DNA from: Tubulanus polymorphus
Taxonomy: Eukaryota > Nemertea > Palaeonemertea > Tubulaniformes > Tubulanidae
Length of the DNA stretch: 64,000 nt
Direction of reading: 5' to 3'
NCBI RefSeq assembly: GCF_964204645.1
Contig: NC_134030.1
Location: 4,317,855-4,381,854 of the forward strand
Shown here one piece after another: positions 2,358-31,500 of this stretch. Made by a program: the position numbers and the translations under genes. The notes under the pieces were generated by a model. The model worked only from the letters and a program-made list of their open reading frames with translations, was not told the origin of the DNA and did not search any database. Within the stretch, counting starts at the first letter, position 1, and the number at the start of each line of letters is the position of its first letter.

Positions 2358-2619
2358 CATATTTATAACCTCTTACAAAATAAATTCACGTTTGTTTTTG
2401 CCCGTAATCGTATTAGAATAAACCACTGTAAATCCAATTTGTGAATAGATGTTCATTTATCAAAGATTACAATTCAGTAATTTTAGTATCTTTGTTGAGA
2501 GTATGCGTGGGTTAATGCAATAAAATATTAATTGGATTTGTTAAATAAAACCCGGAATAGGATTCGGATTGAGGATCGGAAGTGAAAGAATGGAATCAGA
2601 ATCGGAAATGAAGACTGGA

Positions 2620-2740
2620 ACTATCGTGAAGTGAGCCCGTCATTCCAGCCTCGTATTCAGATATAGTGTGTACACACTGAACAGCTGCATGTAGATACTG
2701 GTTGATGTGAAATGTATAACCTAACGCTTTGACCTGACGA
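2620..2740. repeat. Dispersed repeat, inverted partner at about 20529..20640
   Basis: The stretch containing CCTCGTATTCAGATATAG and GATACTGGTTGATGTGAAAT recurs in reverse complement near 20.53-20.64 kb with a few changes. It has no coding content. It is an interspersed repeat of unknown class, with ends not determined. Confidence 0.55.
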
Positions 2741-2924
2741 AACGACGATCATTCAATGAAGTCACCGGGGGCAGTAGAGTGCTCAATAATTGTTTTATAT
2801 AATTCATTATTGTTTAATAACAATATGAATGATTTTCGTAAATTTCATAGATTCTCATCGAAATGTATCTTACATCAATAATGCCTGTTATTTCAGTACG
2901 ATTGCGTGACAGGGTGCGTTATTT

Positions 2925-3650
2925 GAATTTTAAAATTACGCGTATTTCAACGCACGATTGTATCATGATTCAACATTTAAAATTAAAATTCAAAATCAGA
3001 TTTCTCTAAAACTAAAACCTGAGGCTTTCTGAAAATTGAGTATATTATTTAGGAGACTCTATTCTTCAGGTCGATGTAATGCAGATGTCTGTGCATTGAT
3101 TTGATCATAGTTAAAATACGCGTCATTTCAAGAGAAGTTTGCACCATGGCGCGATATTTAAATATTAAAATTCAAAATCAAATTTCTCTAAAACTAAAAA
3201 CTGAGGCTTCCTGGAAATCTAGTATTGTGAAGGACACTCTATCCTTTAAGTTGATTTAAGGCAGATGTCTGTGCATTGATTCATAGTAAAAACGCAATAT
3301 TGCAATACACGATTGCATCATGGCGCGGTGTTTAAAAATTAGAATTAAAAATCAAATTTTTCTAACACTAAAACCTGAAGCTTTCTGAAAATTTAGTATA
3401 TTATTAAAGAAACCCTATTCTATGAGTTGATTTAAGGCAGATGTCTGTGCATTGATTTGATCATAGTTAAAAACGCGTCATTTCAATACACGATTACATC
3501 ATGGCGGGTTATTTAAAGATTAAAATTCAAAATTAAATTTCTCTTAAACTGAAACCTGAGGCTTTCTGAAAATCTAGTATATTATAAAGGAAACTATATT
3601 CTTTAATTTGATTTAAGGCAGATGTCCGTGCATTGATTTGATCATCTTAC
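2925..3650 (+). repeat. Four tandem copies of a ~178-bp repeat
   Basis: Each unit contains the signals TTTCTCTAAAACTAAAACC, TGAGGCTTTCTGAAAAT and GCAGATGTCTGTGCATTGAT. Copies begin near 2930, 3115, 3290 and 3465, diverged by substitutions and short indels. No ORF runs through the array. It is a small local satellite. Confidence 0.75.
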
Positions 3651-5270
3651 TTGGGGAACACAAAGTGTTGTCCCAAGTAGGCTACCTGTGTATTGATTTT
3701 ACTTTTCGTCAAGAACGAATGATGTTATTGACACGATCTTGATATTTTGTTTATGGCATTGATTATGCCTGCTACGCAAGTGTATTGACATTCCTAAAAT
3801 TGGATGAGGCGTTGATAATTTTATGAGATACCCACACGATTGATTGGGGGAAAACTTAGGTCATTTCTCAAACATTTGTTATTCATAATTTACAATTTGT
3901 CATGGTACTAGTTTTGGGAATTTTTTGAGACGGATTGGGAAAACATTCAGATAATGATTGAGAAAATTGACGACTCATGTAGGCCTAAGGCCTACGAATG
4001 GCTGTGAACGAAAAATATGGCCTTAGCTCGGCTGGGTCATATTTGTAAAATATGAAAAAATTTGTTAAAAGTTCATTTCTACAGCGACCGGGTCTGTAAT
4101 GGTAAAATTGATCACGGTTTTAAAAAAAAAAGTCATGTACAGGGACAGGGTAGATAGGCGGCAGGCCGGGTCTACTTTAAAGCTCGGCAGAGCAGAGAAA
4201 CAAGGTTCCAAATCAATTTTTTTTAGCCTTAAGACATGCTTGCAACTGCTGTGATGATGAGGTAAGCTATTTAAACGAAAAAGCACCTTTCACATTTTTC
4301 GGAAGGCATTAGAGAGGATGGCTAGCCACCCTAACCCCCTAGATCCGCCCCTGCTACAGTAAACCGGCCGCCCTACTGGAACTAGAGACCCGCTAGATTG
4401 GCACTAGTTGTGCAGTGAATATCCGAGTGAGGTTTACTGTAGTTTTCTATCACCTAATGTATCAATAAACTGGAAAATATAATCCCAGGGACTATCAAGT
4501 TTAAATGTGCATGAGTAGACCGAGTTCTAACTAAAATCTATTAAAACAAGTGAGTACAGGTGATTGTACAGACGATAGATTGAGTTTGAAAGTGTCTGAG
4601 TCCGAGTCAATACTATAATTGATTAGTGTGATTCGAGTTAATTAAAGAGCCGAGAGCTGAGTCAACTGTAGATCACAGAAAAATAACACAAACAATTTGT
4701 AGTGAACAACTAAACCACGAATAGGTTTTTAGTTGTGATTAATAGTTCAATATGTATTTACATGCAAACAAAGGTCAACCAATTATCAAACACCAATCAC
4801 AAAGCCCTTTAAATCAATTAAGCACCACAAAATCAATATAATTCAGCAATGTAACAAATAAAAGACAACATAAACTGGTAACGTAAGTACTTTCCACCTC
4901 GTTTACTATTCTACAGCAAGTTGAGAATACAGCTCCTCTACGAATCGATCATGTCATTTCATAGAAATAAATATGGTATTCACAAAAACAAACTAGTTAA
5001 AATGTATTGTAATTAACCAAAACCGACAGAAGTCAACACGAAGAAATCAAGGTCAGTCATCATGTCATGTCGATATTCAAACACACTACGGAACTGACTG
5101 CTGCATTTCATTTCGACCTCAAAACAACATCAACAATTCTTTAGAAGCGATCAAAGATATTCTAACTGGTTTTATTTAAATCAAAATAAATAAATAAATA
5201 AAAAATCTCAAATTGAACACATATGTTCATACACACGGTCAGTTGCACACACAAGAATTCTCAAAGTCTT
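3651..5270. other. Intergenic stretch without recognised gene
   Basis: AT-rich sequence with only short chance frames on both strands. No splice-supported exon, RNA gene or clear repeat was recognised. Confidence 0.45.
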
Positions 5271-5274
5271 AACA

Positions 5275-5600
5275 CGCAGAAGAGTTGTCCAAGTTCCAGC
5301 AACGCATTAAGAGTTCTCCAAGTTCGAGCAACGCATTCGAGTTCTCCAAGTTCCAGCAACGCAATAGAGTTCTCGAAGTTCCAGCAACGCGTTAGAGTTC
5401 ACCAAGTTCCAGCAACGCATTAGAGTTCTGGAAGTTCCAGCAACGCATCAGAGTTCTCCAAGTTCTAGCAACGCATAAGAGTTCTCCCAAGTTTCAGCAA
5501 CGCATCTCGAAGTTCCAGCAACGCGTTAGAGTTCTCTTAGTTCCAGGAATGCATTAGAGTTCTCTAAGTTCCAGAAACGCATTAGAGTTCTCAAATGATT
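5275..5600 (+). repeat. 28-bp minisatellite, about 11 copies
   Basis: The consensus unit is close to GTTCTCCAAG followed by TTCCAGCAACGCATTAGA, with copies carrying small indels so the period drifts between 25 and 30 bp. The short open frame across its left part is a by-product of the repeat. Confidence 0.85.
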
Positions 5601-5699
5601 AACAGGCGCCATCTTATTATTAAATTAGATGTATCACACATTTTTTCACCTAGAAGACAAATCAAACAAACATTAAAGGATATTTTAAACAATCAATAA

Positions 5700-7080
5700 A
5701 ACATTTCAAGTCGTTTTTCTATTACAATATACCTGATTTATAGTCTGTTCAGATTCATGACTCATCCATTCTTTCATCCTTTCAACTTTGGAAGAATATT
5801 CATGTAAATCCCTGCAGGTATTTTTCCATCTTGTAGTAACATAACATCTTTAGATATTTCCTACTTACAACACAAAAACTCAAAATATGAATAATTTTTG
5901 AATAATGTCAGATATGAAAATTGATTCATGTAATTTCAAAGTTATACCTGATTTAAAGTCAGTTCAGACTAATAATTCGACCTTCCTTTGCAACTGTTCA
6001 CTTTGTGACACTACTTTGTTGTTGACTAAGGCAGATAACTCAGTACTACTGATCTCAGCAGTGACATTCATCTAACTGATGCCTGGTGATTATCTCATCT
6101 ATAGTGACTCAGTTCTGTGGACCTCTCATTATTTGCTACAAGAAAACACAAAATATGAATACCGGCAATTTTCAATTTTTGAGATTTTTATATAAATTCA
6201 ATATTATACCTGATTTATTGTCAGTTCAGACAAATGACTCGACGTTCGACTGGGACTGTTAACGTGTGACTCTTAATTGTTACTTCGTTCCTGACTTAGA
6301 GGCAGATACAGCACAGCGCCACTGATCTCATCTCACTTGTGATCCTCTTATCTCACTGGAGACGCCCAGATCTTACCACTTGGATAAACATAGTTCTGTA
6401 CTGATCTCACTGGTGATATTCTCATCTCTGGTGACACTCAGTTCTGTGGTAAACCTCTCAATATTAGCTAAAAGAAAACAAAATATGAATAAATTTAGAT
6501 TTTGACACTTTGATCTATAGTCAGTTCAATGACTGATCCTTCCTCTGGTATTGCATGTCTAATGATTTGCTACAAGAAAACATGTAACAGACCATCATAA
6601 CGTTTGAGACTTTCCTAACAACAAGAAATCCATGTCTATCTAACTTAATATACCTCATTTATAGTCAGTTCAGACGAATGACTCGACATTCCTCTGGAAC
6701 TAAAAACCTTCCTTGCGACTCTGTAACTCTGTTGCTGACTTTGACGGAGATGAATCAGTACTACTTATCTCAGTGGTGACATTCATCTAACTGATGCCCG
6801 GTGATTGTCTCATCTCTGGTGAGACTCAGTTCTGTGGTAAACCTCTCAATATTTGCTACAAGAAAACACAAAATATGAATACTTTTTTCAATTTTGAGAC
6901 TTCGAAAATTGATTTATACAATTTTCAATATCCATACCTGATTTAAAGTCAGTTCAGACTCATGACTTGATGTTCCTCTGGAACTGTGAACTTTCCCTGT
7001 GACTCGTGTCACTTTGTTCCTGACTTTGAGGGAGATAACTCAGTACAACTGATCTGGCTGATCTGACACTACAATCTCTC
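5700..7080 (+). repeat. Diverged 210-330-bp repeats sharing an ACCTGATTTATAGTCAGTTCAGA core
   Basis: The motif ACCTGATTTA-AGTCAGTTCAGA recurs near 5731, 5947, 6209, 6652 and 6938, with a partial copy near 6510. It is usually followed by an ATGACTCGACATTCCTCTGG-like block, then GACTTTGA and CAGTACTACTGATCTC blocks, and finally an AAAACACAAAATATGAAT block. Copies vary in length and have internal gaps, so this is an old local tandem family. Confidence 0.7.
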
Positions 7081-7744
7081 TATAATCACTGCGACTTAAT
7101 CTTCACTATATTATTTCAGACATTGATAATTTCACATTTCATTTTTTTCCATTTTACAATTAATCATTAACCTTTTATATTTTTTTCTACAAAATGGGTA
7201 TCTAAGATTATTTGTACAATTAATGCTTTTCAATGACAAATACTGAAATATTATCACAAATTATTTCCACACACGAACAAAGAAAGATAGCACGCTACAT
7301 GGACCCGCGGGTGTGCATGTGTATACCCTGAAATATACATAAACACAATTTGTGTGTCTTTATGTATTTAGTGCCATTTCATGCAAGTGCGTTAGTGCAT
7401 GGATGCATCAGTGCAAAATGAGACGTCAGGTGCAAAGTGAGACGTCAGGTGCTTAGTGAGGAGACGTCAATTGTTTTCACCGGTGTTTATGATGATCGAT
7501 CTTCACTTTATAGGCTATAATGGATAAGAGTTGACTCCAATGTTTTGAAGTTTTATCAACTCAGGTTTAGAGTTTATCAGCATTCATAAAACGCTCTGAC
7601 CCAGTTTAGCTGATTCAAGGGCTATCTAACACCTAGGCTATCAAGGGCTATCAAGCAATAGCATCTTCGAATGTAACAATCTTAAAACGCAACTCCGTAA
7701 TGTGATAATAAGTTGCTGATACAATATATAAACAGTACTAACAC
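7081..7744. other. Intergenic, with a short GAGACGTCAGGTGCAAAGT triplication
   Basis: Near 7415..7470 a unit of about 20 bp containing GAGACGTCA is repeated three times. The rest is AT-rich sequence with no recognised gene. Confidence 0.5.
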
Positions 7745-10700
7745 CAGTGAAATTTCAATGATACAACCACCACAAAGCTATCAATGGATAGCTGTGTTGA
7801 ATATTTATAAATTTAAACGTAAAGTCGCGACAAGGGAGATCAGAAAACATAACAATCAATCCCAATTCACCGACTTAAATTAGAATTTATACACTGAACC
7901 AACACCAGCGACATTTCAATGATACAACCACCACAAAGCTATCGATGGATAGCTCTCCTTTCGATGGATAGCTCTCTTTTGAATATCTATACATTTAAAT
8001 CGTTAAGTCATAATAAGGACGATCAGGAAACAAAACTCACCAAAACTCAATATCACCCAAAAGCAGAGTGTATCAATTAACACCACCAGCGAGCAGGAGT
8101 ATTAATGAGGTCATCAGTGATGTAAGACACTGAAAATTCAGTTTGTCACGTTTCTACATGACAGTTGAAGATGGAAGGAGAAGACTCCTGAACTCAATAT
8201 CACGTTTTAATTAACAAGCACCAGCAAGCAGCAGTATTAAAGGTGGCCATCAGTGTTGTAACACACTGACAATGCAGTTTGTTTGTCACGTTTCTACATG
8301 ACAGTTGAAGAAGGAAGGAGAAGACTCCTTAACTCAATATCACCCCAAAACAGAGTGTTTTAATTAACACCACCAGCAAGCAGCAGTATTAAAGGAGGTC
8401 ATCAGTGTTGTAACACACTGACAATGCAGTTTGTTTGTCACGTTTCTACATGACAGTTGAAGAAGGAAGGAGGAGACTCCTGAACTCAATATCACCCCTA
8501 AAAAGGTGGAATAATTAACATGGAGAAGGAACTTGCCAGCTTTTTAGATGGCCATAATGTGTAATTTGATAATGTAATTATGTAACAATTCATGATGTAA
8601 TAATGTTTAATGTAATAATCTTTATTGTTATAATGTTTAATGTAATAATTCATGAAGGTAAGGGAAGGAGGTAAGAATTAACACCCAGCAGCAACGAGCA
8701 GTATTAAAGGAGCCCATCAGTGTTGTATCACACTGACAATTCAGTTTGCCACGTTTCTATGTGACAGTTGGAGAAGGAAGGAGGAGACTCCTGAACTCAA
8801 TATCATCCCAAAACAGAGCGTTTTAATTTACACGCACCAGCAAGCAGCAGTATTAAAGGAGGTCATCAGGTAAGACACCAGGAGGACAATTCAGTTTGTC
8901 ACATTTCTACATGACAGTGTTGAAGAAGGAAGGAGGAGACTCCTGAACTCAATATCACCCCAAAACAGAGTGTGTATCAGTGTTTTGTAGCACTTAACTT
9001 TCATCACCAACAATTGATTGAGCAGTAATTAACCCAGTGTTTTTGAACACTAAACAAGGAATTTCAATGATACAACCACCACAAAGCTATCGATGGATAG
9101 CTCCTTTGAATATCTATACATTTAAAACGTTGTCGCAATAATGACAATCAGGAAATATAAGAATCAATCCCAATTCATCGACATATATTACAATATATAC
9201 ACAAAACCAACACCAGCGACATTTCAATGATACAACCACCACAAAGCTATCGATGGATAGCTCCTTTGAATATTTATACATTTAAAACGTAAAGTCGCAA
9301 TAAGGACGATCAGGAAACAACAATCCCAATTCACTGACATATATTACAATATATACACAAAACCAACACCAGCAGCATTTCAATGATACAACCACCACAA
9401 AGCTATCGATGGATAACTCCTTTGAATATTTATACATTTAAAACATTAAGTCCCAATAAGGACGATGAGGAACATAAAAATCAATCCCAATTCACCAACA
9501 TATTTTACAATATATACAAAAAACCAACACCAGCGACATTTCAAAGTTTCAACCACCACAAAGCTATCGATGGATAGCTCCTTTGAACATTTATACATTT
9601 AAAACGTTAAGTCGCAATAAGGATGATCAGGAAACATAACAATCAATCCCAATTCATTGACATATATTACAATATATACACAGAACCAACACCAGTGACA
9701 TTTCAATGATACAACCACCACAAAGCTATCAATGGATAGCACCTTGAATATTTATACATTTAAAACGTTAAGTCGCAAAACTGAGTGTTTTAATTAACAT
9801 GCACCAGCAAGGAGCAGTATTAAAGGCCCTCAGTGATGTAACGCACTGACAATTCAGTTCGTTTGTCACGTTTCTACATGACAGTTGAAGAAGGAAGGAG
9901 AAGACTCCTGAACTCAATATCAACCCAAAACAGAGTGTATCAATCAACACCCAGCAGCAAGCAGCAGTATTTAAGGAGGATGATTCATGATGTTATAATG
10001 TTTAATGTAATAATTCTATTGTAATAATGTTTAATGTAATAATTCAAGAAGGTAAGGGAAAGAGAAACAATTCTCAATATCACCTCTAAATCAATGAATT
10101 AACACCCAGCAGCAAGCAGCAGTATTAAAGGAGGTCATCAGTGTTGTAACACACTGACAATTCAGTTTGTTTGTCACGTTTCTACATGACAGTTGAAGAA
10201 GGAAGGAGGAGACTCCTGATCTCAATATCACCCCAAGACAGAGCGTTTTAATTTACACCCAGCAGCAAGCAGCAGTATTAAAGGAGGTCATCAGTGTTGT
10301 AACACACTGACAATGCAGTTTGTTTGTCACGTTTCTACATGACAGTTGAAGAAGGAAGGAGGAGACTCCTGAACTCAATATATCACCCCAAAACAGAGTG
10401 TTTTAATTAACAAGCACCAGCAAGCAGCAGTATTAAAGGAGATCATCAGGTTGGACATCAGGATGACAATTCAGTTTGTTTGTCACATTTCTACATGACA
10501 GTTGAAGAAGGAAGGGGGAGACTCCTGAACTCAATATCACCCCTAAAAAGGTGGAATGATTAACATGGAGAAGGAACTAGCCAGCTTTTTAGATGGCCAT
10601 AATGTGTAATTTGATAATGTAATTATGTAACAATTCATGATGTAATAATGTTTAATGTAATAATTCTTATTGTGATAATGTTTAATGCAATAATTCAAGA

Positions 10701-13700
10701 AGGTAAGGGAAGGAGGTAAGAATTAACACCCAGCAGTAACGAGCAGTATTAAAGGAGGCCATCAGTGTTGTATCACACTGACAATTCAGTTTGTCACGTT
10801 TCTACGTGACAGTTGAAGAAGGAAGGAGGAGACTCCTGAACGAAGGAAGGAAGGAGACTCCTGAACGAAGGAAGGAAGGAGACTGTTGAACTCAATATCA
10901 TCCCAAAACAGAGTGTATTAAATAACACCCAGCAGCAAGCAGCAGTATTAAAGGAGGTCATCAGTGTTGTAACACACTGACAAGTCAGTTTGTTTGTCGC
11001 ATTTCTACATGACAGTGTTGAAGAAGGAAGGAGGAGACTCCTGACCTCAATATCACCCCAAAACAGAGTGTATCAGTGTTTTGTAACACTTAACTTTCAT
11101 CACCACCAAATGATTTAGCAGTAATTTACCCACAGTGTTGTGTAACACTTAAATTTTATCACCACCAATTTAGCAGTATTTCACCCACAGTGTTTTTGAA
11201 CACTTAACGAGGAATTTCAATGATACAACCACCACAAAGCTATCGATGGATAGCTCCTTTGAATATTTATACATTTAAAACGTAAAGTCGCAATAAGGAC
11301 GATCAGGAAACAACAATCCCAATTCACTGACATATATTACAATATATACACAAAACCAACACCAGCAGCATTTCAATGATACAACCACCACAAAGCTATC
11401 GATGGATAGCTCCTTTGAATATCTATACATTTAAAACGTTAAGTCGCAATAAGGACGATCAGGAAACATAACAATCAATCCCAATTCACCGACATATTTC
11501 ACAATATATACACAAAACCATCACCAGCGACATTTCAATGATACAACCACCACAAAGCTATCGATGGATAGCATCTTTGAATATTCATACGTTTAAAACG
11601 TTAAGTCGCAAAACTGAGTGTGCTAATTAACATGCACCAGCAAGCAGCAGTATTAAAGGAGGCCCTCAGTGATCTAACGCACTGACAATTCAGTTCGTTT
11701 GTCATGTTTCTTCATGACAGTTGAAGAAGGAAGGAGAAGACTCCTGAACTCAATATCAACCCAAAACCGAGTGTATCAATTAACACCACCAGCAAGCAGC
11801 AGTATTAAAGGAGGTTATCAGTGTTGTAACACACTGACAATTCAGTTCATTTGTCACGTTTCTACATGACAGTTGAAGAAGGAAGGAGAAGACTCCTTAA
11901 CTCAATATCACCCCAAAACAGAGTGTATCAATTAACACCACCAGCAAGCAGCAGTATTAAAGGAGGTCATCAGTGTTGTAACACACTGACAATGCAGTTT
12001 GTTTGTCACGTTTCTACATGACAGTTAAAGAAGGAAGGAGGAGACTCCTTAACTCAATATCACCCCAAAACAGAGTGTATCAATTAACACCACCAGCAAG
12101 CAGCAGTATTAAAGGAGGTCATCAGTGTTATAACACACTGACAATGCAGTTTGTTTGTCATGTTTCTACATGACAGTTAAAGAAGGAAGGAGGAGACTCC
12201 TTAACTCAATATCACCCCAAAACAGAGTTTATCAATTAACACCACCAGCAAGCAGCAGTATTAAAGGAGGTCATCAGTGTTGTAACACACTGACAATGCA
12301 GTTTGTTAGTCAGGTTTCTACATGACAGTTGAAGAAGGAAGGAGGAGACTCCTTAACTCAATATCACCCCAAAACAGAGCGTTTTAATTTTCACCCACAT
12401 CAAGCAGCAGTATTAAAGGAGGTAATCAGTGTTGTAACACACTGACAATGCAGTCTGTTTGTCATGTTTCTACATGAAAGATGAGGAAGGAAGGAGGAGA
12501 CTCCTTAACTCAATATCACCCCAAAACAGAGTGTATCAATTAACACCACCAGCAAGCAGCATTATTAAAGGAGGTAATCAGTGTAGTAACACACTGACCA
12601 TGCAGTTTGTTTGTCATGTTTCTACATGACAGTTGAAGAAGGAAGGAGGAGACTCCTGAACTCAATATATCACCCAAAAATAGTGTTTTAATTAACATGC
12701 ACTAGCAAGCAGCAGTATTAAAGGAGATCATCAGGTTCGACACCAGGAGGACAATTCAGTTTGTTTGTCACATTTCTACATGACAGTTGAAGAAGGAAGG
12801 AGGAGGCTCCTGAACTCAATATCACCCCTTAAAAGTGGAATGATTAACATGGAGAAGGAACTTGCCAGCTTTTTAGATGGCCATAATGTGTAATTTGGTA
12901 ACGTAATTATGTAACAATTCATGATGTAATAATGTTTAATGTAATAATTTTTATTGTGATAATGTTTCATGTAATAATTCATGAAGGTAAGGGAAGAAGG
13001 TAAGAATTACTACCCAGCAGCAACGAGCAGTATTAAAGGAGCCCATCAGTGTTGTTTCACACTGACAATTCAGTTTGTTTGTCACGTTTCTACGTGACAG
13101 TTGAAGAAGGAAGGAGGAGACTCCTGAACTCAATATCATCCCAAAACAGAGTGTATTAAATAACACCCAGCAGCAAGCAGCAGTATTAAAGGAGATCATC
13201 AGGTTGGACATCAGGAGGACAATTCAGTTTGTTTGTCACATTTCTACATGACAGTGTTGAAGAAGGAAGGAGGAGACTCCTGACCTCAATATCACCCCAA
13301 AACAGAGTGTATCAGTGTTTTGTAACACTTAACTTTCATCACCACCAAATGATTTAGCAGTAATTCACCCACAGTGTTGTGTAACACTTAAATTTTATCA
13401 CCACCAATTTAGCAGTATTTCACCCACAGTGTTTTTGAACACGTAACGAGGAATTTCAATGATACAACCACCACAAAGCTATCGATGGATAGCTCCTTTG
13501 AATATTTATACATTTAAAACGTTAAGTCACAATAAGGACGATCAGGAAACATAACAATCAATCCCAATTCACCAACAGATATAACGATATATACACAGAA
13601 CCAACACCAGCGACATTTCAATGATACAACCACCACAAAGCTATCGATGGATAGCTGCTTTGAATATTTATACATTTAAAACGTTAAGTCGCAAAACTGA

Positions 13701-14645
13701 GTGTGCTAATTTTACATGCACCAGCAAGCAGCAGTATTAAAGGAGGCCCTCAGTGATCTAACGCACTGACAATTCAGTTCGTTTGTCACGTTTCTACATG
13801 ACAGTTGAAGAAGGAAGGAGAAGGCTCCTGAACTCAATATCAACCCTAAACAGAGTGTATCAATTAACACCACCAGCAAGCAGCAGTATTAAAGGTGGTC
13901 ATCAGTGTTGTAACACACTGACAATGCAGTTTGTTTGTCACGTTTCTACATGACAGTTAAAGAAGGAAGGAAAAGGCTCCTGAACTCAATATCAACCCAA
14001 AACAGAGTGTATCAATTAACACCACCAGCAAGCAGCAGTATTAAAGGTGGTCATCAGTGTTGTAACACACTGACAATGCAGTTTGTTTGTCACGTTTCTA
14101 CATGACAGTTAAAGAAGGAAGGAGAAGGCTCCTGAACTCAATATCAACCCAAAACAGAGTGTATCAATTAACACCACCAGCAAGCAGCAGTATTAAAGGA
14201 GGCCATCAGTGTTGTAACACACTAACAATGCAGTTTGTTTGTCACGTTTCTATATGACAGTTGAAGAAGGAAGGAGGAGACTCCTTAACTCAATATCACC
14301 CCTTAAAAGTGGAATGATTAACATGGAGAAGGAACTTGCCAGCTTTTTAGATGGCCATAATGTGTAATTTGATAATGTTATTATGTAACAATTCATGATG
14401 TAATAATGGTTAATGTAATAATTTTTATTGTGATAATGTTTCATGTAATAATTCAAGAAGTTAAGGGAAGAAGGTAAGAATTACCACCCAGCAGCAACGA
14501 GCAGTATTAAAGGAGGCCATCAGTGTTGTATCACACTGACAATTCAGTTTGTTTGTCACGTTTCTACGTGACAGTTGAAGAAGGAAGGAGACTCCTGAAC
14601 TCAATATCACACCAAAACAGAGTGTGTCAGTGTTTTGTAAAAGTT
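7745..14645 (+). repeat. Large composite satellite with higher-order organisation (A, B, C and D units)
   Basis: Four unit types alternate. A (~160 bp) carries TTTCAATGATACAACCACCA and CAAAGCTATCGATGGATAGC. B (~150 bp) carries AGCAAGCAGCAGTATTAAAG, CAGTGTTGTAACACACTGAC and TGTCACGTTTCTACATGACA. C (~200 bp) carries ATGGAGAAGGAACTTGCCAG and TAATAATGTTTAATG runs. D carries CAGTGT-TTT-AACACTTAA. A-runs start near 7751, 9061, 11215 and 13455; C units start near 8512, 10555, 12840 and 14310; D blocks near 8965, 11070 and 13305 each precede an A-run. The order B-C-B-D-A repeats at about 2.0-2.3 kb. All open frames inside are short and not conserved between copies. Confidence 0.9.
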
Positions 14646-14647
14646 AA

Positions 14648-15905
14648 CTTTCATAAAGAGGCAGCAATCAGAGTTTTAAATCACTGACGACGATTAATGT
14701 CGACGATGATGCGAATTGGAAATTCATTTCAGCAGTAATCAACAGTATTTGGAAGTGACAGCAATCAGTGTTTTGAGTCACTGACAATTAACGTCGATGA
14801 TACTGCGAATTGGAAATTCATTTCAGCAGTAATCAACAGTATTTGGAAGTGACAGCAATCAGTGTTTTGAGTCACTGACAATTAACGTCGATGATACTGC
14901 GAATTGGAAATTCATTTCAGCAGTAATCAGCAGTATTTGGAAGAGGCAGCAATCAGTGTTTTGAGTCACTGACAATTAACGTCGATGATACTGCGAATTG
15001 GAAATTCATTTCAGCAGTAATCAGCAGTATTTGGAAGAGGCAGCAATCAGTGTTTTGAGTCACTGACAATTAACGTCGATGATACTGCGAATTGGAAATT
15101 CATTTCAGCAGTAATCAGCAGTATTTGGAAGAGGCAGCAATCAGTGTTTTGAGTCACTGACAATTAACGTCGATGATACTGCGAATTGGAAATTCATTTC
15201 AGCAGTAATCAGCAGTATTTGGAAAAGGCAGCAATCAGTGTTTTGAGTCACTGACAATTAACGTCGATGATACCGCGAATTGGAAATTCATTTCAGCAGT
15301 AATCAGCAGTATTTGGAAGAGGCAGCAATCAGTGTTTTGAGTCACTGACAATTAACGTCGATGATACTGCGAATTGGAAATTCATTTCAGCAGTAATCAG
15401 CAGTATTTGGAAAAGGCAGCAATCAGTGTTTTGAGTCACTGACAATTAACGTCGATGATACTGCGAATTGGAAATTCATTTCAGCAGTAATCAGCAGTAT
15501 TTGGAAAAGGCAGCAATCAGTGTTTTGAGTCACTGACAATTAACGTCGATGATACTGCGAATTGGAAATTCATTTCAGCAGTAATCAGCAGTATTTGGAA
15601 GAGGCAGCAATCAGTGTTTTGAGTCACTGACAATTAACGTCGATGATACTGCGAATTGGAAATTCATTTCAGCAGTAATCAGCAGTATTTGGAAAAGGCG
15701 GCAATCAGTGTTTTGAGTCACTGACAATTAACGTCGATGATACTGCAAATTGGAAATTCATTTCAGCAGTAATCAGCAGTATTTGGAAGTAGCAGCAATC
15801 AGTGTTTTGAGTCACTGACAATTAACGTCGATGATACTGCGAATTGGAAATTCATTTCAGCAGCAATCAACAGTATTTGGAAGTGGCAGCAATCAGTGTT
15901 TTGAG
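14648..15905 (+). repeat. Homogeneous 94-bp tandem array, about 13 copies
   Basis: The period is exactly 94 bp (for example the GAGGCAGCAATCAGTG block at 14943 and again at 15037). The unit holds CAGTGTTTTGAGTCACTGAC, then ACGTCGATGATACTGCGAAT, then CAGTAATCAGCAGTATTTGG. Copies are nearly identical in the middle, with diverged first and last units, as expected from unequal exchange. The segments CAGCAGTATT-GAGG and CAGTG-N8-CACTGACAAT resemble the B unit of the neighbouring satellite, so the array probably arose from it. Confidence 0.92.
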
Positions 15906-16849
15906 TCTCTTGTACTTGAAATTTCAAGAACGAGTAGATAGGAGATCCCAAATCTCAACATCATCCCTAGGATGGAGGAGGAGGAGAAAATTCATAATTC
16001 TTTTAAGTATACCTTATTATTTCATACCTACTATTCATTTAAAATATCTGTTAAAAGAGTGAAGAAGGTCATATCAACTAGCCAGTATCATAGTTATTGA
16101 TTATTCGTCAACATCGGACAATAATTGTAGGACAGGTAGTGATTTAAAAAGTTTACAAGCGCCACCCGTACAGTGCCCCCTAGAGATCAAATTGGGAAAA
16201 TGGCTCTGTAACTTTTTAGCCCTTGGCCCATAGAATCTACATACCAAGTTTCGTCAAGATCAGAAAAGAACTGTAGCACTAGTAGCAAATTGAAGCATAA
16301 GTTGACGGATGGACAGACCGACGGACGGACAGACGACGACGGGTAATCCCCTAACCCATCAAAACCCATAAAAACTCATTGGAAAGCGGGTTTCATTGAA
16401 TATCCCTTCCCCAAATATACCAATTTCAAATTTCAATGTAATACGGCTAGCATCAGGCTTAAAAATGTTTTTTGCGGCATAAATACCCACAAGAAAGCCA
16501 TTTTGTTTCTGATCAAAAAATGTTTTTGAGATGGTGAAATAAAGGGTATTATAAATGTATAACCAAAAATCAAGACGAGAAAAAATATGCAAAATGTACT
16601 TATTTTGACCGAGAAACAACAAAGGCTGGCAGTCCGTTATCTTAATTCTGATAAGGGCCAATACTTAAGATTTGTTTACTGAATATTGAATTTCAACTAA
16701 AAAAACTATTCTGACAATTCTGATTTCTCAATGTATCATTTTATTGAAGTATTCACAGAAACCAAAACCAATAGAAACCGAACAATCAACAATCAGCAGT
16801 TTGTAGAATAACCAGACAGCGCCTACAGTTAACAATAATAAGTACTGTG
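15906..16849. other. Spacer with a GACGGACGGACAGACG-containing interspersed repeat
   Basis: Around 16180..16370 lies an ACCAAGTTTCGTCAAGATCA block followed by GACGGATGGACAGACCGACG and more GACGGACGGACAG. I recall this arrangement as the end of interspersed repeats common in lophotrochozoan genomes. The rest of the stretch has no supported gene. Confidence 0.5.
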
Positions 16850-17195
16850 CGTGGATGCGCTGGTATCACTGGTACTGGCTTGATGCACTGGTATCACTGG
16901 TACTGGGATGATGTACTGGTATCACTGGTACTGGGATGATGCACTGGTATCACTGGTACTGGGATGATGTACTGGTATCACTGGTACTGGGATGATGCAC
17001 TGGTATCACTGGTACTGGGATGATGCGCTGGTATCACTGGTACTGGGATGATGCACTGGTATCACTGGTACTGGGATGATGCGCTGGTATCACTGGTACT
17101 GAAATGATGTAGTGGTATTACTGGTACTGGGATGATGCGCTGGTATCATTGGTGCTGGCTTGATACGCTGGTATCACTGGTACTGGGATGATTAT
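16850..17195 (+). repeat. 28-bp minisatellite, about 12 copies
   Basis: The unit is GATGATGCACTGGTATCACT followed by GGTACTGG, with variants TGCGCTGG and TGTACTGG. Within each unit the motif ACTGGTAT-CACTGGTACTGG is itself a near duplication. No coding frame is preserved. Confidence 0.9.
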
Positions 17196-18730
17196 ACACT
17201 GCAACTGGGTTGGTGTGGGTTGATAGTACTTAAACTGTAGTAATGAAGAAGGCGGCCAATCTCACTACTGACTACCTAGTATCAGGTGCTGAACTCAGAA
17301 GCGGTGCTGCGACGTAGCATAACCAATTCATAGCCGGCTTCAAACAAATTCATTCTTAATAGAATAAACACATTTTCATCTACGTCGTCATAAAAAAACC
17401 AATATAAATCATTAAATAATGAATAAATGAGAGATCGATTATACTTACATTTAGTACATTGTTATTGTACGTTGCGCAATTATTCAAACTTTCTCCCACA
17501 ACCAGGTGACTTCATATAAATCAATCAAATCCATTTACTACAGAATATCAAATATATTTTCATTCAATCATAAAACAAAACATCATTAAACAGTGAATAA
17601 TGAATAATAATTGGAATCTAGGCCTATTTCACAAATACCGATATTTACAAGATATTTCAAATGAATCACTACTTACCCCTCGAATATTGAATCCATCACC
17701 GGAATAATTCACTGACACTGTCAATATAATGACAGCTACTTCCCCGCAGGAAAAAATGCTCATAGGCTGGAAAAACACTAGGCTGGGGTTGCTAGGCTTA
17801 TGAATGGATAAATATTTGGATCCGGTACCTACCGTAGCTTTTTAGGCCTAATTGAAAATAATTCTTTCAACAAAATAGAAACCTTTTCTAACTTGCAATA
17901 TAATGAGTTTCATCAATTAAACAGTTTCAAACTGTTTATTTGCCGTTTTCTGAAAGGAATTAAACAGCATCAATGATACATGCTTGGAGCGCATGATGGA
18001 AATTCTTTACAAACGGCACGTCAAATTTGGACCCGGAAATAGGTTTTTACATCATTATAATAAATCCCATCCATCAGAGTCACATTCTATTAAATTCAAT
18101 TCAATTTTGTTCCGTGAATATTTGTGTCGAGAGACGGAAAGGAAATTCTATGTCGAGACATCAAGGATAGTTTTATCGTTATTACTTCAGTTAATTTACT
18201 GTTTTAATGCAGATATAGAAATAATTGTCTTTCCTTATTGAATGTTTCTAAATTTTTTACTTTTCAATAGAATAATTTAGATTCTACCTAGAATGAAATA
18301 TTTAAGATCAGTAAAATTGAAAAAAAAATATATATTTGAGATATTGAAACGCCGATATTTTTGTGATCACTTTTGAGATTAAGAGTTGAAATAATTGAAC
18401 TTTCAAAGTGACTGAGGTATTCAAATGAATAGAAAAATTATCTGAATAGAATTGGATAAGTCAGTTTAGATATTCTAGTTTAAGATTTCGGATTTGAGAA
18501 ATATTTAAATGAAATTTCAGAGATTTGTGCTAGATATGTTGTGTATTTGATATAACCAAGATAAGTATATTTGAGGCATACTAATTGAGATAAGGTAATG
18601 AGTAAAAACTTACTTAAATTGAGGAACAGGTCGAGTGCCCCGCCATTTTTCAGCACCTCGACCTGTACGGATTTCAGCACGTCGAATAAAAAGTTACATG
18701 ACATGATTGTTGTAGTTTTTGTAGTAAGTT
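17196..18730. other. Intergenic stretch without recognised gene
   Basis: AT-rich sequence. On the minus strand near 18614..18706 an ATG (MSCNFLFDVLKSVQVEVL) is followed by a good GTAAGT donor, but no homologue is recognised and no partner exon was found. Confidence 0.4.
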
Positions 18731-18734
18731 GTCG

Positions 18735-18955
18735 ACGTTGTTGTAGGTTCCGTAGAAGGTTCTGTTGTAGAAGGTTCTGTTGTAGAAGGTTCTGTTGTAG
18801 AAGCTTCTCACGGTTGTCGAAGGTTCTGTTGTAGAAGGTTCTGTTGTCGAAGGTTCTGTTGTAGAATGTTCTGTTGTAGAAGGTTCTGTTGTAGACTGTT
18901 CTTCTTGTTGTAGGTTCTCTGATTGCTGCTGCTGCTGCTACTGCTGCTGCAATAT
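18735..18955. repeat. 15-bp minisatellite (GTTCTGTTGTAGAAG) followed by a CTG-rich microsatellite
   Basis: About ten copies of the 15-bp unit run to about 18915, followed by CTGCTG repeats at 18927..18950. Because the unit is a multiple of three it stays open in several frames. On the minus strand one frame reads Ser-Thr-Thr-Glu-Pro repeats. An in-frame TAG precedes that frame just inside the possible acceptor at 18947, so it is not supported as a protein. Confidence 0.8.
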
Positions 18956-19093
18956 TGATAAAAGAAAATAATTAATACCAAGATATCAAATCAAATCAAT
19001 CAAGAAACATTTCATCGACAGGAAAAAATAAAATGGACGCAGTTAAGCATACCGGAAAATGGCCGAACTGGAAAGAGTGACCCCGTGACCGGG

Positions 19094-19122
19094 CCTTATA
19101 TACCGACACCGGTGTGACGTCA
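19094..19122 (-). promoter_or_regulatory. Candidate minus-strand promoter: CRE plus TATA box
   Basis: Read on the minus strand, a perfect TGACGTCA (19115..19122) is followed 12 bases later by TATATAAGG (19094..19102). The spacing and order are those of a classic CRE-TATA promoter. Transcription would start near 19065..19075 and run through the CTG repeat and 15-bp minisatellite. A pyrimidine-rich acceptor (CAATATTGCAG) lies at about 18947. No convincing protein follows, so the transcript could be non-coding or its exons may be unrecognised. Confidence 0.4.
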
Positions 19123-19134
19123 TATTACACAATA

Positions 19135-21780
19135 CTGACCAATGACAAGTAACTTGACATTCCCGCCGAGAAGTCAAAGAATGAAATTATTGCCACCGAA
19201 TTGCCATTAGATTCGAATCCTGCAAACGGAACGATGGTTGATTTTCTATTAAGGGGTGCCTTCACGTTGGAAAGCGCCGATGCCCGGGCCACACCAGTCT
19301 ACTTAGTTTTGTGGCCAATTTAACACACCGTAAATCGGGGTGACTTGAGACGCTTATTTATGATTTTTTCATATGCAGCTCGAGGACCTACTAACAATCT
19401 ACCCAAATGATGATTATTTGAACAACAATTGGTCCCTCTTCAGTTCTAGGCGTGATGAAAAAATGTGTCTAATGATTTTCTAATTTTTTTTATTCAGAAA
19501 CAACTGTCTCATGTCACCCCAAATTTGCTGTAAATAAAAGTCTGTTTGATTTTACGCCGATAATTTGATTCTGTTTGTTCACCAGTTGCAGACTTTAAGC
19601 AGCTTATACAACTGTGGAAATATTGGATTCAAAACTCAGTAGAACTGGATCCAGTGTAGAACTGAACCGCTGACTACGGCGTATTATTAGAAATCAAATA
19701 AGGCCAGAAAATTTGAAGGAACTCGCTGCTTTTGCTTTTGATGGCTGATCGGGTCTTATCTAAAGGTCGTACTCAAGCTGGTCAGGGATCGAGTTCAACT
19801 AATACACCTTTAACCTGTGGAAACAGTAGGATATTATGTACAGCCTTGCGCCGATAATCAAGTCTTTTTACTTTGGATCATTTAACCAATCCGTGAAATT
19901 GATTGTCCGACAACTATTTCCTAAAAATGTTGAAAGTCTCTTAAACTCTCCCAAGACCGACTGATGTGCATGGAATGTATGGTGACATTTGAAATTACCA
20001 CAGGCAGCCGTTATCAATATAACTTTTTGAATTCATCGTGGGGAAAAAACCAAACTTTTTGAATTCTGGATCTTAGGTAGAGAGTCTAGATAATTCAAGA
20101 TCCATAGCGTATTTGCTAAGGTCCAAATTTTGTTGAAAATAACCCCTCTCGCCTAAAACATCACGCTGGCCATGCTTAACAATGCAGGCCCAACTTAAAA
20201 GAATAGCTCTTAAGAAAGAGTTGCCTTATCAAAATACTCAATTTTGGAATAAGTCGAAATCATTTTTCAATGAATAGGCCTAATTCCAAAATATTCAGTA
20301 TTAATGGAAATGGAAATTTATTCGAAGACTAATGTTTCAGTCCACTGGAAATCCACTGCCAAATTTTCCTTGAGATCTGAGAGTAGGGTATAGGCTAATA
20401 TTTTCATTAGATAGAATAGGTTTGCGGATTTCTACTTCATCATATTTAGAAATATTCTGGGAAGGATTAGCCATGCATTTACATTATCTGATGCTGTACT
20501 ATATATACATCATCGCTCCGTCATGCCGAGTTATACATTTCACATCAACCAGTATGCAGCTGTTCAGTGTATACACTCTATATCTGAATACGAGGCTGGA
20601 ATAACATGCTCACTTCACGTAGACTGGACTCACTAGATAAGATTAGAATCAGAATGACAAAAATACAACTGAATACGAATTTCGACATCCTTTAATATCG
20701 CTATCTCTCAGAAGATAAATCATTCATAGCGAACTACGGTCTCAACAGAATGTCAACACGAATTACAACAATCCTGTTCTTGGCAAAATGAGAGTTGAGA
20801 AAGTCTTGGCCTCCGTTAAACCACAAAAGCAACGAAGACAATTTTGTTTTAAAAATCTGTATTTCCCAATGTGACTTTTGATATAATTTTTCGTTGTTAT
20901 CGAAAAGAAACGACAAAATTTACACCATAAACAAAATTTGACACTAAGTTCCAAGATATGATTCAAAAGTAATAAAAAATAAACTACTAAGATTATATTA
21001 GCACATATTTTCCTCATTGAAATATGACCTACAAACCAATCAACCCAAACATTTCATTTTGCGAAAACTTTCGGTACATGTCCTTGATGCATGCAATACT
21101 TGGTTGAATTCATCAGTTCATCAGTAGAACACACTTGGATTTAAGTGAATAACGTTACAAAAAATAAAATTATACTGTGGAATACTTTAACAGCAGTCTT
21201 TATCAAAGCCTAAAGTTATTTATAGCACACAAATAGATTCACAAAATACATTCGGAAAAATACACGAAATTCAGCATCTTAACAATTAGCAATGGGAAAA
21301 CAGAACATTACTATACTTCATACAGAACCAAGAATTTTGTAAGATTCCTCTGAAAAACATTGACACTAAACAAGATCGCTAATAACACCGGTAATAAGAC
21401 GGTTGAAAATACTGACAATTTTTACCATAACCTCTCATATCGGACAAGTGTAAGATTTTCAATTACAACATAACTTATCTACTCAATGCACAGAACACCT
21501 TACTACATAAAGAAAACACCTACAATAGTCTAACTGGTTTTACTATCAGATACGGAACAGATACGGATGACCAGGAAGAACCACGGCAAGAAAACCTTGC
21601 TCATAATGCAGCCAAATGAAGACACAATATTCCACAAAAATCAACAGAAACATTTGAAACATTAGTATCATGTGAATTGGACGAGGTTTTGAAAAGCGAA
21701 ACTACCGAACCATTAGTAAACTTATTGATATATCTTAAGTGAACTCTGCCATCAGATCTTTTCATTTGTTGGTGTGTGAT
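19135..21780. other. Intergenic stretch, no recognised gene; 3' flank of CBS
   Basis: Only short chance frames are present. The dispersed repeat partnered with 2620..2740 lies at about 20529..20640. The stretch from about 21100 to 21781 is probably CBS 3' UTR and flank, though I saw no clear minus-strand AATAAA. Confidence 0.45.
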
Positions 21781-26825: not shown

Positions 26826-26833
26826 GACGACAC

Positions 26834-27992
26834 GTCCACAGGGGCTCGTTACGATAGCTGGGGGTCCAAAATCAAAGATTTGACCCAGTATCCTAGGTAC
26901 CACCTATAAAAAAAGAAAAGGGAGCTAACATTTTGACATACTAGAATTGACCTTCTCATTTCAATCGCTCATAACTTCGTAACCCATCGACCGATTCGCT
27001 CGAAATTGGTTTCGTTTCATTCCTAAGAGGTTACTTTTTCGTTTGAGACCTTCCGCGACAAAATCGGATAAGAGACACCCGAGAAATCACGACTCAAATC
27101 CGAAAAAACGAGTCAAAATGGCCAAAGCCGGAATTACTAGGACGTCTCGGAGTAGTCGATTCCCAACGAAAAACGATGAGTTGACGCGGTTCCCGGACGT
27201 TAATCTTCACATATCATACATCGCTGGAAAGCTTATGAACTGACCTTATTGAAAAATGCGTTTATTTGATAATCCGTTCCGAAACCGGCGACAAGCGAGG
27301 TGATAATACGCACCGAACCGATAAATACGCACTTTAAGCGTCACTGAACCGCCATTGAGGGTGTGACGTCACGGGCTCTGAGGACTGATAAATTCGCGAT
27401 ACGTGATTGGTCGACTGAATATGTCAATTATCTAGCGTTGCATGCTGGGATTTCTCATGACGTCACGCAGTTAATGGCGGCCGGAATACACTTGGAAATC
27501 GTATTTATCGCATCAATCTGGATTATCAGCTCGCCAGTCGCGGGTATCGGAACGGATTATCAAATAAACGCGTCTGTCAATAAGGTCAGTTCATAAGCTT
27601 TCCAGCGATGTATGATATGTGAAGATTAACGTCCGGGAACCGCGTCAAATCATCGTTTTTCGTCGGAAATTGAGCACTTCAAGCCGTCCTAGTAATTCCG
27701 GCTTTGGATATTTTGACCCGTTTTTTCGGATTTGAGTCGTGATTTCTCGGGCGTCTCCGGTCCGATTTCATCGGGGAAGGTCTCAAACGAAAAAGTCACC
27801 TCTTGGGAATGAAACGAATCTAATTTCGTGTAAATCGGTCGATCGGTTACGAAGTTATGAGGGGTTGAAATGAGAAGGTCAATTCTTGTATGTCAAAATG
27901 TTAGCTCCCTTTTCTTTTTTTATAGGTGGTACCTAGGATACTGGGTCAAATCTTTGATTTTGGACCCCCAGCTATCGTAACGAGCCCCTGTG
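26834..27992. mobile_element. Non-autonomous fold-back DNA transposon, hAT-like, with perfect 8-bp target duplication
   Basis: The 1159-bp element starts CACAGGGGCTCGTTACGATA and ends with its reverse complement. It is flanked on both sides by GACACGTC (26826..26833 and 27993..28000), an 8-bp target-site duplication. The inverted arms run about 540 bp each (26834..27372 and 27457..27992) around a spacer of about 85 bp. Arms differ by scattered substitutions but keep the same order. Eight-base duplications with CA-GGGG-type ends are the hAT signature. No transposase is encoded. It lies between the divergent CBS and PP2A-A genes. Confidence 0.88.
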
Positions 27993-28546
27993 GACACGTC
28001 AGTCAGTCAACTGAATTCATGTTTCGTGGTTGATTGACGGAATGTCATGGATACATTTTATAAATACGCAAGAACGAAATAAAGATTAGCATACAAAATA
28101 GATAATCAGCAAGTTCACTAACGTATTTAATGCATTTTTAGTGTATTTACAGAAGACAGACCTGTCGAATCGTGTTTACTCTTCCTGGTTCTGTTAAAAA
28201 GGGTCCATGGTCATGCCTAATCATTGGACATCGGCTTCGGGCATCGGAGTAAGCACTCTTCCCCGATTCGGGTATTATCGGAGTCACCCATTTCTGGACA
28301 ATTAAGTGTAGCAAATTAACTCCAGGCGGGGTTCGAGTCCCATTTAAACATTTTATCAGCTGTGACTAGCAATGGCACCCGGTCATCGACAATCTGTGTG
28401 ATAACTCGAGTAAACCATGATATTTTAAAAATATAATGGGTATTACCATGAGGATATCTAAAAAAAATCAATATACTGCGACAATTGGTGGTTTTGCAGT
28501 AATTTAAAAATTTCATTGAATTTGCATTGAGCTGTCAAATTTCAAA

Positions 28547-31500
28547 ATGGCGTCAACAGAAGCTGGTTCTGATGATTCCCTCTACCCGATCGCGGTGTTA
28601 ATTGATGAATTGCGGAATGAAGATGTTCAAGTAAGTTGATCTATCGCAAGTGCTCGTTTTAAAGCTCGTTCTGGCGAAGTAACGTAGCGTATCACCGCCT
28701 AGAACAGCTGTAATCAGTGTTTCGATTGAAAAATTACGCACTTGTCTTTCATTTTCACCTCTCTCGCGTCCTTGTCGATCTCGCTACGTTCCTCATTCCA
28801 CGGGATGGCACTGGACAGTCAAAAGAAACAATTTTTTTTTCCAATTTCGTTGCAGCTGAGATTGAACAGTATCAAGAAGCTGTCAACTATAGCATTAGCC
28901 CTGGGAGTGGAGAGATCACGCACTGAACTCATTCCATTTCTAACTGGTAAGGCATTTCTGTTTTTTTTTGTGATCTGTTGAATTAGGTTTGGCTGATATG
29001 TAGACTTGCCAGCTCTCATGATAGTGTTAATATAACAAGCAAAAAACCTGTGAAAATCATATTTTTTTAGCCCAGGCACTACAGAGCTTTGTGTTTGAAT
29101 TTAATACATTTTCGCGATTTATTGAGTGATGCATTTATGTTTTCAACTAACAAAGCTAGTTCATCATATCCATGCATATAGCTACTATCAAGATACATAC
29201 AGTAACCATTGACCTTTCTTGTTTTAGCTATTCATAAAGATTGATTGAGTTTGTTCTACTTTACCTCTCTTGACAAATGATAGTCTAACCGCAAAGTTCC
29301 ACAATTCTAGGAATATTGTGCTTTATGCATTATCAATGTTATTATTTTTTTAATTCTCCGATATTCAGATACAATCTATGATGAAGATGAAGTGCTTTTG
29401 GCCTTGGCCGAACAACTCGGACAGTTCACGCCGCTGATCGGAGGACCTGAATATGTTCACTGCCTTCTCGTTAGTATTATTCTTGATTTCGAATCACCAA
29501 ATCTGTGAATTTCAGGGTTTGTACTAGTCAGTAGAAATTTGGATTAGTATTTCTCTAGGCTTGGAAAATTATGAACCACAGAATATGAAACACTGCAAAT
29601 AGTACGGCGAACCCTGGGATTGATTTAGTTTTAGGGGGTTGTGAGCTGCCTGGTCTTATAATGATTTATTTTCTAGCCACCGTTGGAAAGTTTGGCTATA
29701 GTTGAAGAGACAGTCGTGCGCGATAAAGCCGTCGAATCATTACGGATCATCGCCGGACAGCATTCTCAGAGCGATCTCGAGACCCACGTCGTTCCGTTGA
29801 TTAAACGATTATCGAGTGGAGATTGGTTCACGTCGAGGACATCTGCTTGCGGACTTTATTCCGTCACTTATCCCAACGTTTCCTCAACTCTGAAAGCAGA
29901 ACTCAGACAGTAAGTAACGCGCACACACAGAGTGTGACATTACTTTGAATTTCAGATGAACTTGGGTCTTTCTTTCTAGGGTCCTCTTAACAGCATTTTC
30001 ATGATTGGTAGACTGATATTAATCTCATTATTTCAGAGCTGATGAGCAAAACCAACAGTTGATGATTTAACAAATTATCAAGTCATCATCTGTGGGTTTG
30101 CTCAGATTTTCATATTGAACATGATATAAGTCAGGGAATTAAGAGAGTCTGAGAGTCTTGGAATTTTTTGTGAAAAACCAGGGAAAAGTCCTGGAAATTT
30201 GTTGAGATTGCTAGATCGCTCGTAAAATCGGACAGTTTCCTTGTATGTTTTATGAAATCGACAACTTTAATTAATTGGATTCTAAGTAGATCAAGTTAGG
30301 GAAATGACGCGCACGTCAGGGAATAGCCAGGGAAAACCAAGTCAAATAAAGCAAGCAACCCTGATGAATAGATTGTTCACAATTACGTTTCATGTTTTCT
30401 TGTTTTAATCAGGATGTTTCATACTCTGTGCGGAGATGATACGCCGATGGTTCGTCGCGCCGCTGCTGATCGACTCGGAGAACTCGCTAAAGTCGTTGAA
30501 CCCGAATATCTCAAGTCGGATATCGTGCCATTATTCGCTTCGTTGTCGCAGGATGAACAGGTAATAGAAATACTCCTATCACAATGAGGGGCTCTCTGTG
30601 CTGTATTTGCTATCCGACTAGATGGTGTGCATGACAATAGGACAACTCGGTCAAAGATTAGTTAATTTTACATTGGACTTTCTACTTGAATTCAGTTGGC
30701 GGGTGGCGCATGTAACCTCTTGGTAACAAACAGCCCCCACTGAAAATATCTTAATATGATTTTATCAGGAAATTTTTGCTCAAGGTTTATGGAAAATCAT
30801 GGACATATACATGTATCAGGATATTTTAGGATACCCTGATTTGTACGAACCCCTGGACCTACTTCCACAGTTGTGAGTTAGAGAGTAGTATCTGTATCTG
30901 TTGTTTTCATTGATGAAACCACTTCTGATATTAGCTGTCAATGGCGGAGAGTTAACTCTTCAGTGAGTAGTTAAACTGAACTGAAGATCTGAATCCTGAA
31001 GATGTTATTTCTGTTTGTTACAGGATTCAGTGCGTTTATTAGCAGTGGAAGCATGTGTGCATATAGCGTCATTGTTATCACATGATGATATTGATCAGTT
31101 GGTAATGCCGACTTTACGACAAGCGGCTGATGATAAATCGTGGAGAGTGCGATACATGGTCGCTGATAAATTCACTCAGGTTCGTCGTAATCACAATTAT
31201 CGTTTTCGCGTCTTGTCATCGGCTCGAAATATGACGTAATTTTCTTACGATTGCAGCTACAGAAGGCGGTCGGTTCTGAGATCACGAAGAACGATCTCGT
31301 CCCGGCATTCCAAGGTTTATTGAAAGATTGCGAGGCTGAGGTTCGCACCGCCGCGGCTGACAAGGTTAAAGGTGAGCCTGTCTTTCCATTTCAAGAGAAG
31401 TTGTTGGACATGTTAACCTGGGCTCGGTTTCCTTGCGCGTAGTCCTTGTATATGTATTAGTAGTGAAAGTTCATATCTTTGATAAAATCAAATTAACCTT

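Follow-up and report, generated by a model that had tools for sequence, protein, structure and literature searches.

The tandem arrays in the window, i.e. the whole stretch of 64,000 nucleotides from the nemertean Tubulanus polymorphus that was analysed, are internal sequence of a dispersed giant transposon with terminal inverted repeats (TIRs) of about 100 bp and 9-bp target-site duplications, of which the window region was shown to be a part. The original prediction had seen here a composite chromosomal satellite in place. This reading was given up: a chromosomal satellite is ruled out by the transposon ends and the shared flanks, and no long satellite array independent of the mobile element was found, the 94-bp arrays (at least 10) all having shared element flanks. 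The best explanation of the whole, and a likely one that is held with considerable confidence, is a giant non-autonomous transposon inside which a 94-bp monomer was born and by which it was spread. The features of the window copy, in window coordinates, are the following.

2612 to 2619, plus strand: left target-site duplication AGACTGGA, one base short of 9 (read from the flanks)
2620 to 20620, plus strand: giant TIR transposon, internally deleted copy of about 18 kb, its 5' end placed by convention at 2620 (TIR pair, shared flanks)
2620 to 2721, plus strand: 5' TIR, ACTATCGTGAAGTGAGCC...ATACTGGTTGATGTGAAATGTATAAC (inverted-repeat search, genome TIR comparison)
2938 to 3645, plus strand: subterminal array of 181-bp units, akin to the 183-bp arrays near the ends of the transposase-bearing sister element (Tandem Repeats Finder)
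5274 to 5592, plus strand: 28-bp array inside the element, common to the C2:3.47M copy, L045 (Tandem Repeats Finder)
7720 to 8036, plus strand: A units, first block (unit search)
9061 to 9778, 11214 to 11611 and 13453 to 13694, plus strand: A units, other blocks (unit search)
8060 to 8497, plus strand: B units (unit search)
8676 to 8960, 9776 to 9979, 10094 to 10542 and 10721 to 11058, plus strand: further B blocks (unit search)
11609 to 12827, plus strand: longest B array (unit search)
13014 to 13297, 13692 to 14301 and 14479 to 14610, plus strand: further B blocks (unit search)
8498 to 8701, 10543 to 10746, 12831 to 13030 and 14305 to 14504, plus strand: C units (unit search)
8973 to 9060, 11069 to 11213 and 13308 to 13452, with a fragment at 14623 to 14654, plus strand: D units (unit search)
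14656 to about 15909, plus strand: 94-bp array, last unit partial (Tandem Repeats Finder, unit search)
15910 to 15968, plus strand: tail of a B-type unit, adjoining the 94-bp array on its 3' side (B 100-152)
16100 to 16104, no strand: deletion junction, where about 16.4 kb of the C1:2.9M copy is missing
16854 to 17192, plus strand: 28-bp array, 3' part of the element (Tandem Repeats Finder, copy comparison)
18752 to 18918, plus strand: 15-bp array, 3' part of the element (Tandem Repeats Finder, copy comparison)
20529 to 20620, minus strand: 3' TIR (inverted-repeat search, TIR comparison)
20621 to 20628, plus strand: right target-site duplication AGACTGGA (read from the flanks)

Decomposition of the window, by Tandem Repeats Finder and by searching for each unit in turn, bore out the four predicted unit types, A (about 161 bp), B (about 152 bp), C (about 204 bp) and D (about 145 bp), which fill 7720 to 14654, as well as the homogeneous 94-bp array directly 3' of this block, with 13.3 copies and 97% matches. 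The predicted order B-C-B-D-A recurs, but its period of about 2.0-2.3 kb holds only for the two middle repeats, with D units starting at 8973, 11069, 13308 and 14623 and the long A blocks at 9061, 11214 and 13453; the first A block lies only 1.3 kb ahead of the second, and the last higher-order repeat is truncated by the 94-bp array. The region had been placed correctly, but the true unit is larger, extending from 2620 to 20620. The claim that the 94-mer retains pieces of B was likewise upheld: the two have one contiguous block of about 59 columns in common (positions 72-94 followed by 1-36 of the 94-mer, against B 26-80), whose score of 41 compares with a best score of 29 in 2000 dinucleotide-preserving shuffles, so that the similarity is far greater than chance would give. 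In the same unit comparison, A and C showed no similarity to the 94-mer and D a weak one. Small palindromes in the units were considered as conserved functional sites and dropped, since their conservation ranks (130/136, 37/134 and 56/143 in B, 12/77 in the 94-mer, 17/144 in A) gave no clear excess. An Rfam search of the window returned no match.

The 8-bp direct repeat AGACTGGA stands at both sides of the window element and scores 7/9 in the canonical comparison, with terminal decay. Alignment of copies gives the window copy as the fuller C1 copy minus 16.4 kb, with a 3-bp filler at the join; it is a deletion derivative of a fuller element. A Helitron, suggested by a CTAG near 16079, was ruled out by the TIRs and target duplications, and in other copies the shared sequence runs past that point. 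The fuller copies measure about 30-38 kb and contain many tandem arrays in fixed order. One of them (C1:2.88-2.91M; L076, L077, L048) has extra arrays that are absent from the window copy; the extra arrays of fuller copies comprise 38-bp, 36-37-bp, 32-bp and 159-bp arrays and long polypurine (AGAGGG) tracts.

The genome (268 Mb, 77 contigs) was searched for further copies by scoring the best candidates, so that all copy numbers are lower bounds. The 94-bp array is present at at least 10 loci; each time it follows an A/B/C/D block on the 3' side, orientation and subsequent flank being the same. At an eleventh place, C2:25.8M, one contracted 94-bp unit is kept. In the comparison between copies, which covered parts of each copy, the shared sequence around the arrays reaches kilobases on both sides, and the order of the arrays is identical at 10 loci. 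A genome scan with the inner 26 bases of the TIR in inward-facing pairs placed TIR pairs around the arrays at C1:2.88-2.92M (36 kb), C1:28.54-28.58M (38 kb), C2:29.69-29.72M (33.5 kb), C5:4.23-4.27M (32 kb), C2:25.82-25.85M (30.6 kb), C2:3.43-3.51M (75 kb) and in the window (18 kb); by this pattern, four of the 10 94-bp loci (C11 twice, C4:2.75M and C2:1.93M) gave no pair. Exact 9-bp target duplications abut the TIRs in five copies, namely the 33.5-kb copy, the 30.6-kb copy and three copies of a sister family, compared with an agreement of at most 6/9 in a control with deliberately mismatched ends. At C1:2.88M, C1:28.5M and C2:3.4M such duplications have decayed or are missing, and in the copy at C5:4.2M one TIR no longer has its outer portion. 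Among the matches listed, sister-type TIR matches (TTGACATG) are often contig-interior.

The original prediction had further taken the 94-bp array to be young at this spot. This did not hold, as 10 copies have the array at one and the same position and its divergence between loci (10.6%) is on a par with that of the B units (10.3%). On these two grounds, the 94-bp array predates the dispersal of the element, an age that is relative (array against element) and not absolute. The window 94-mers differ among themselves by 3.4%; this homogeneity is the result of local turnover.

With respect to the origin of the 94-mer, its predicted birth from B is retained as far as a B-type source is concerned, on account of bridging units and a tail, but not as a birth from the B arrays now adjoining. 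Single B'-type units occur in sister elements at C6:2.07M, C1:1.33M and C6:4.02M, loci with A/B/C/D arrays at which no 94-bp array was found. Against the 94-mer they score 75-76, compared with 48 for the B consensus, and their homology to B extends through the whole of that unit or the greater part of it. The stretch from 15910 to 15968 aligns with B 100-152 at a score of 29, reached by one of 5000 shuffles, and in elements on C3 and C8 without the array (L080/L081) a single B-type unit aligns unbroken across the array edge and flank. Homology between the tail of the 94-mer itself and the B tail was considered and dropped (P 0.83); the 35 bp specific to the 94-mer match the tail of B' weakly (P = 0.04). 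In the unrooted monomer tree, which draws on no more than about 60 informative bp, the 94-mers group as one clade (100/100) and the present B-array units another (100/98), with the B'-type units between them. The expected nesting of the 94-mers in B-unit diversity is thus ruled out for the present B arrays, and since their clade lies outside these units, the B arrays that adjoin the 94-mer today are not its source. As the tree is unrooted, the case for the direction of descent is made from the full-length homology of B' and from the tail. Judged on these sequence relationships, a B-type unit older than the present B arrays is very probably the ancestor of the 94-mer. At C1:1.33M, a separate array of 97-bp repeats has been built from the other half of a B'-type unit, which is an independent birth.

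In the simplest reading of the bridging units and the tail, the first 94 bp or so of a B-type unit (B') would have been tandemly duplicated in an ancestral element, the remainder of the founding B' unit staying behind as the 3' flank of the array. Transposition would then have carried the array to at least 10 loci, at each of which it would grow, shrink and homogenise alone; the pattern of divergence is observed, and slippage or unequal exchange would be the cause of the local change.

Three other explanations have to be weighed against this one. That an older composite chromosomal satellite begot a young 94-bp satellite in place, from the adjoining B units, agrees with the real homology of B and the 94-mer and with the homogeneous array of the window, but becomes highly improbable in view of the same array at the same place in 10 dispersed copies of deep divergence, of 94-mers that do not nest in the B arrays, and of transposon ends with target duplications. 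The B' units could, on the other hand, be recombinants of 94-mers and B produced by gene conversion, in which case the 94-mer might be the older one or both might go back to a third common source. The unrooted tree, with B' between the two clades, and the mere 60 bp or so of informative sequence speak for such recombinants; their occurrence at loci that yielded no 94-bp array (L078, L079, L090), their homology to B along all or the greater part of that unit, and the B-type tail flanking the 94-bp array make this unlikely.

Finally, the copies might be segmental duplications of chromosome-end regions instead of products of transposition. Of the A/B-array loci listed, nearly all fall within a few Mb of the ends of long contigs, and three B-array loci at C6:2.07M, 2.11M and 2.15M are 36-38 kb apart, possibly as tandem copies of whole elements. 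Two contig ends that were inspected had no telomere motif. As a general account this is hardly credible, for exact 9-bp duplications stand at the TIR ends of the 30-33 kb copies, within unrelated flanks; it was shown to be false for the copies with target duplications, and may apply to the C6 trio. The preferred explanation remains birth of the 94-mer within a transposon that was then dispersed.

No transposase was found in the window family. The 3' 21 kb of the C1:2.88-2.92M copy contain no ORF of more than 274 codons, the longest being of low complexity or without a Pfam match, and among the matches listed in a genome search with the sister protein, none falls between paired TIRs of the window family. 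The sister family has the same TIR and a subterminal repeat of about 183 bp; in its member at C4:26.3M, the 183-bp array ends about 0.2 kb from one TIR, with a shorter array near the other. This member has an intact ORF of 1758 amino acids with a PHD finger (323-370, E 7.5e-6), a ubiquitin-specific protease (UCH) domain (USP) and a C-terminal Ulp1 (C48) domain, and a protein of 1758 amino acids with 100% identity to this version is encoded at C2:24.2M. Between USP and Ulp1 lie the candidate D/D/E motifs IYYDATGS, ISxDRS and TQGxxExxWKDxKG, which are kept among genome relatives at roughly 36-52% identity. In the literature searched, no paper described a transposase that combines Ulp1, ubiquitin hydrolase and PHD; such proteins may nevertheless be on record elsewhere. 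As the two families have TIR ends in common, the transposase of the sister family is probably the mover of the window family, acting in trans; Pfam transposase models gave no match to the DDE-like region, so the argument for mobilisation in trans is built on these shared TIRs.

By structure the elements are Rehavkus/MULE-like, a likeness drawn from published structural descriptions. Rehavkus, a group of DNA transposons in Repbase and an outgroup of MULEs, is tabulated with a 9-bp duplication, TIRs of 26-400 bp, a single ORF with a PHD finger and a minisatellite before the 3' TIR (PMC6446971). A host in Arthropoda or Annelida also belongs to the description of the group. The elements described here agree in the 9-bp duplication (exact in five copies), in TIRs of about 100 bp, in the PHD finger of a single ORF (that of the sister element, no such ORF having been found in the window family) and in a minisatellite adjoining the TIR (the sister 183-bp array, and the related 181-bp array near the 5' TIR of the window copy). 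They differ in the USP and Ulp1 domains of the sister protein, neither of which is in that table, and in size, 26-38 kb compared with 9.5 kb for Rehavkus-1_TC (PMC10218199). Satellite repeats of 164 bp, TCsat23, are carried in the termini of that flour beetle element (PMC10218199), a point of likeness; in Tubulanus the element is non-autonomous and much larger, and its interior is taken up by many different arrays. Birth of satellite monomers within MITEs is a further parallel, an example being miDNA4 of Xenopus tropicalis (reviewed in PMC9659126), where, as here, a monomer arises and amplifies in a non-autonomous DNA transposon and then homogenises; in the present case the source-type unit, the bridging unit and the array are all visible in one element family. 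Complete arthropod MULEs, reported to reach about 10 kb, have TIRs and long target duplications as well (PMC13359780); the present elements are longer and gave no Pfam MULE transposase match.

Elsewhere in the window, a 30-bp array and an ORF that matches RRM (E 5.4e-6) adjoin each other at 53195-54260 and 54958-55773. At 31376-31768 and 32035-32424, ORFs match HEAT repeats, once in PPP2R1A-like form (E 1e-14) and otherwise weakly; they probably represent exons of a host gene for the PP2A A subunit. Long inverted repeats with closely set arms were noted at 26829-28000 (501-nt arms, 91%) and 1202-1749 (250-nt arms, 96%).

Precedents exist in the satellites of Rehavkus termini and in the monomers born in MITEs; the present case stands out by its size, by how many arrays it contains and by intermediates that can still be seen, in an array-rich TIR transposon of 30-38 kb in which no transposase was found and which was inserted as one unit. 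Tentatively, and with rather less than even confidence in the combined proposal, these Rehavkus-related giant transposons may be viewed as a nursery of tandem repeats, in which monomers would repeatedly be cut from one ancestral unit of about 150 bp (one branch taking a piece of 94 bp, a second branch an overlapping piece of 97 bp), amplified and spread, the elements reaching 30-38 kb largely through arrays and being driven by a new PHD-USP-DDE-Ulp1 architecture. The origins of satellite monomers are usually inferred from end products; with the source-type unit, single-copy bridges, the amplified array and the founding tail in one family, the steps and their order become testable.
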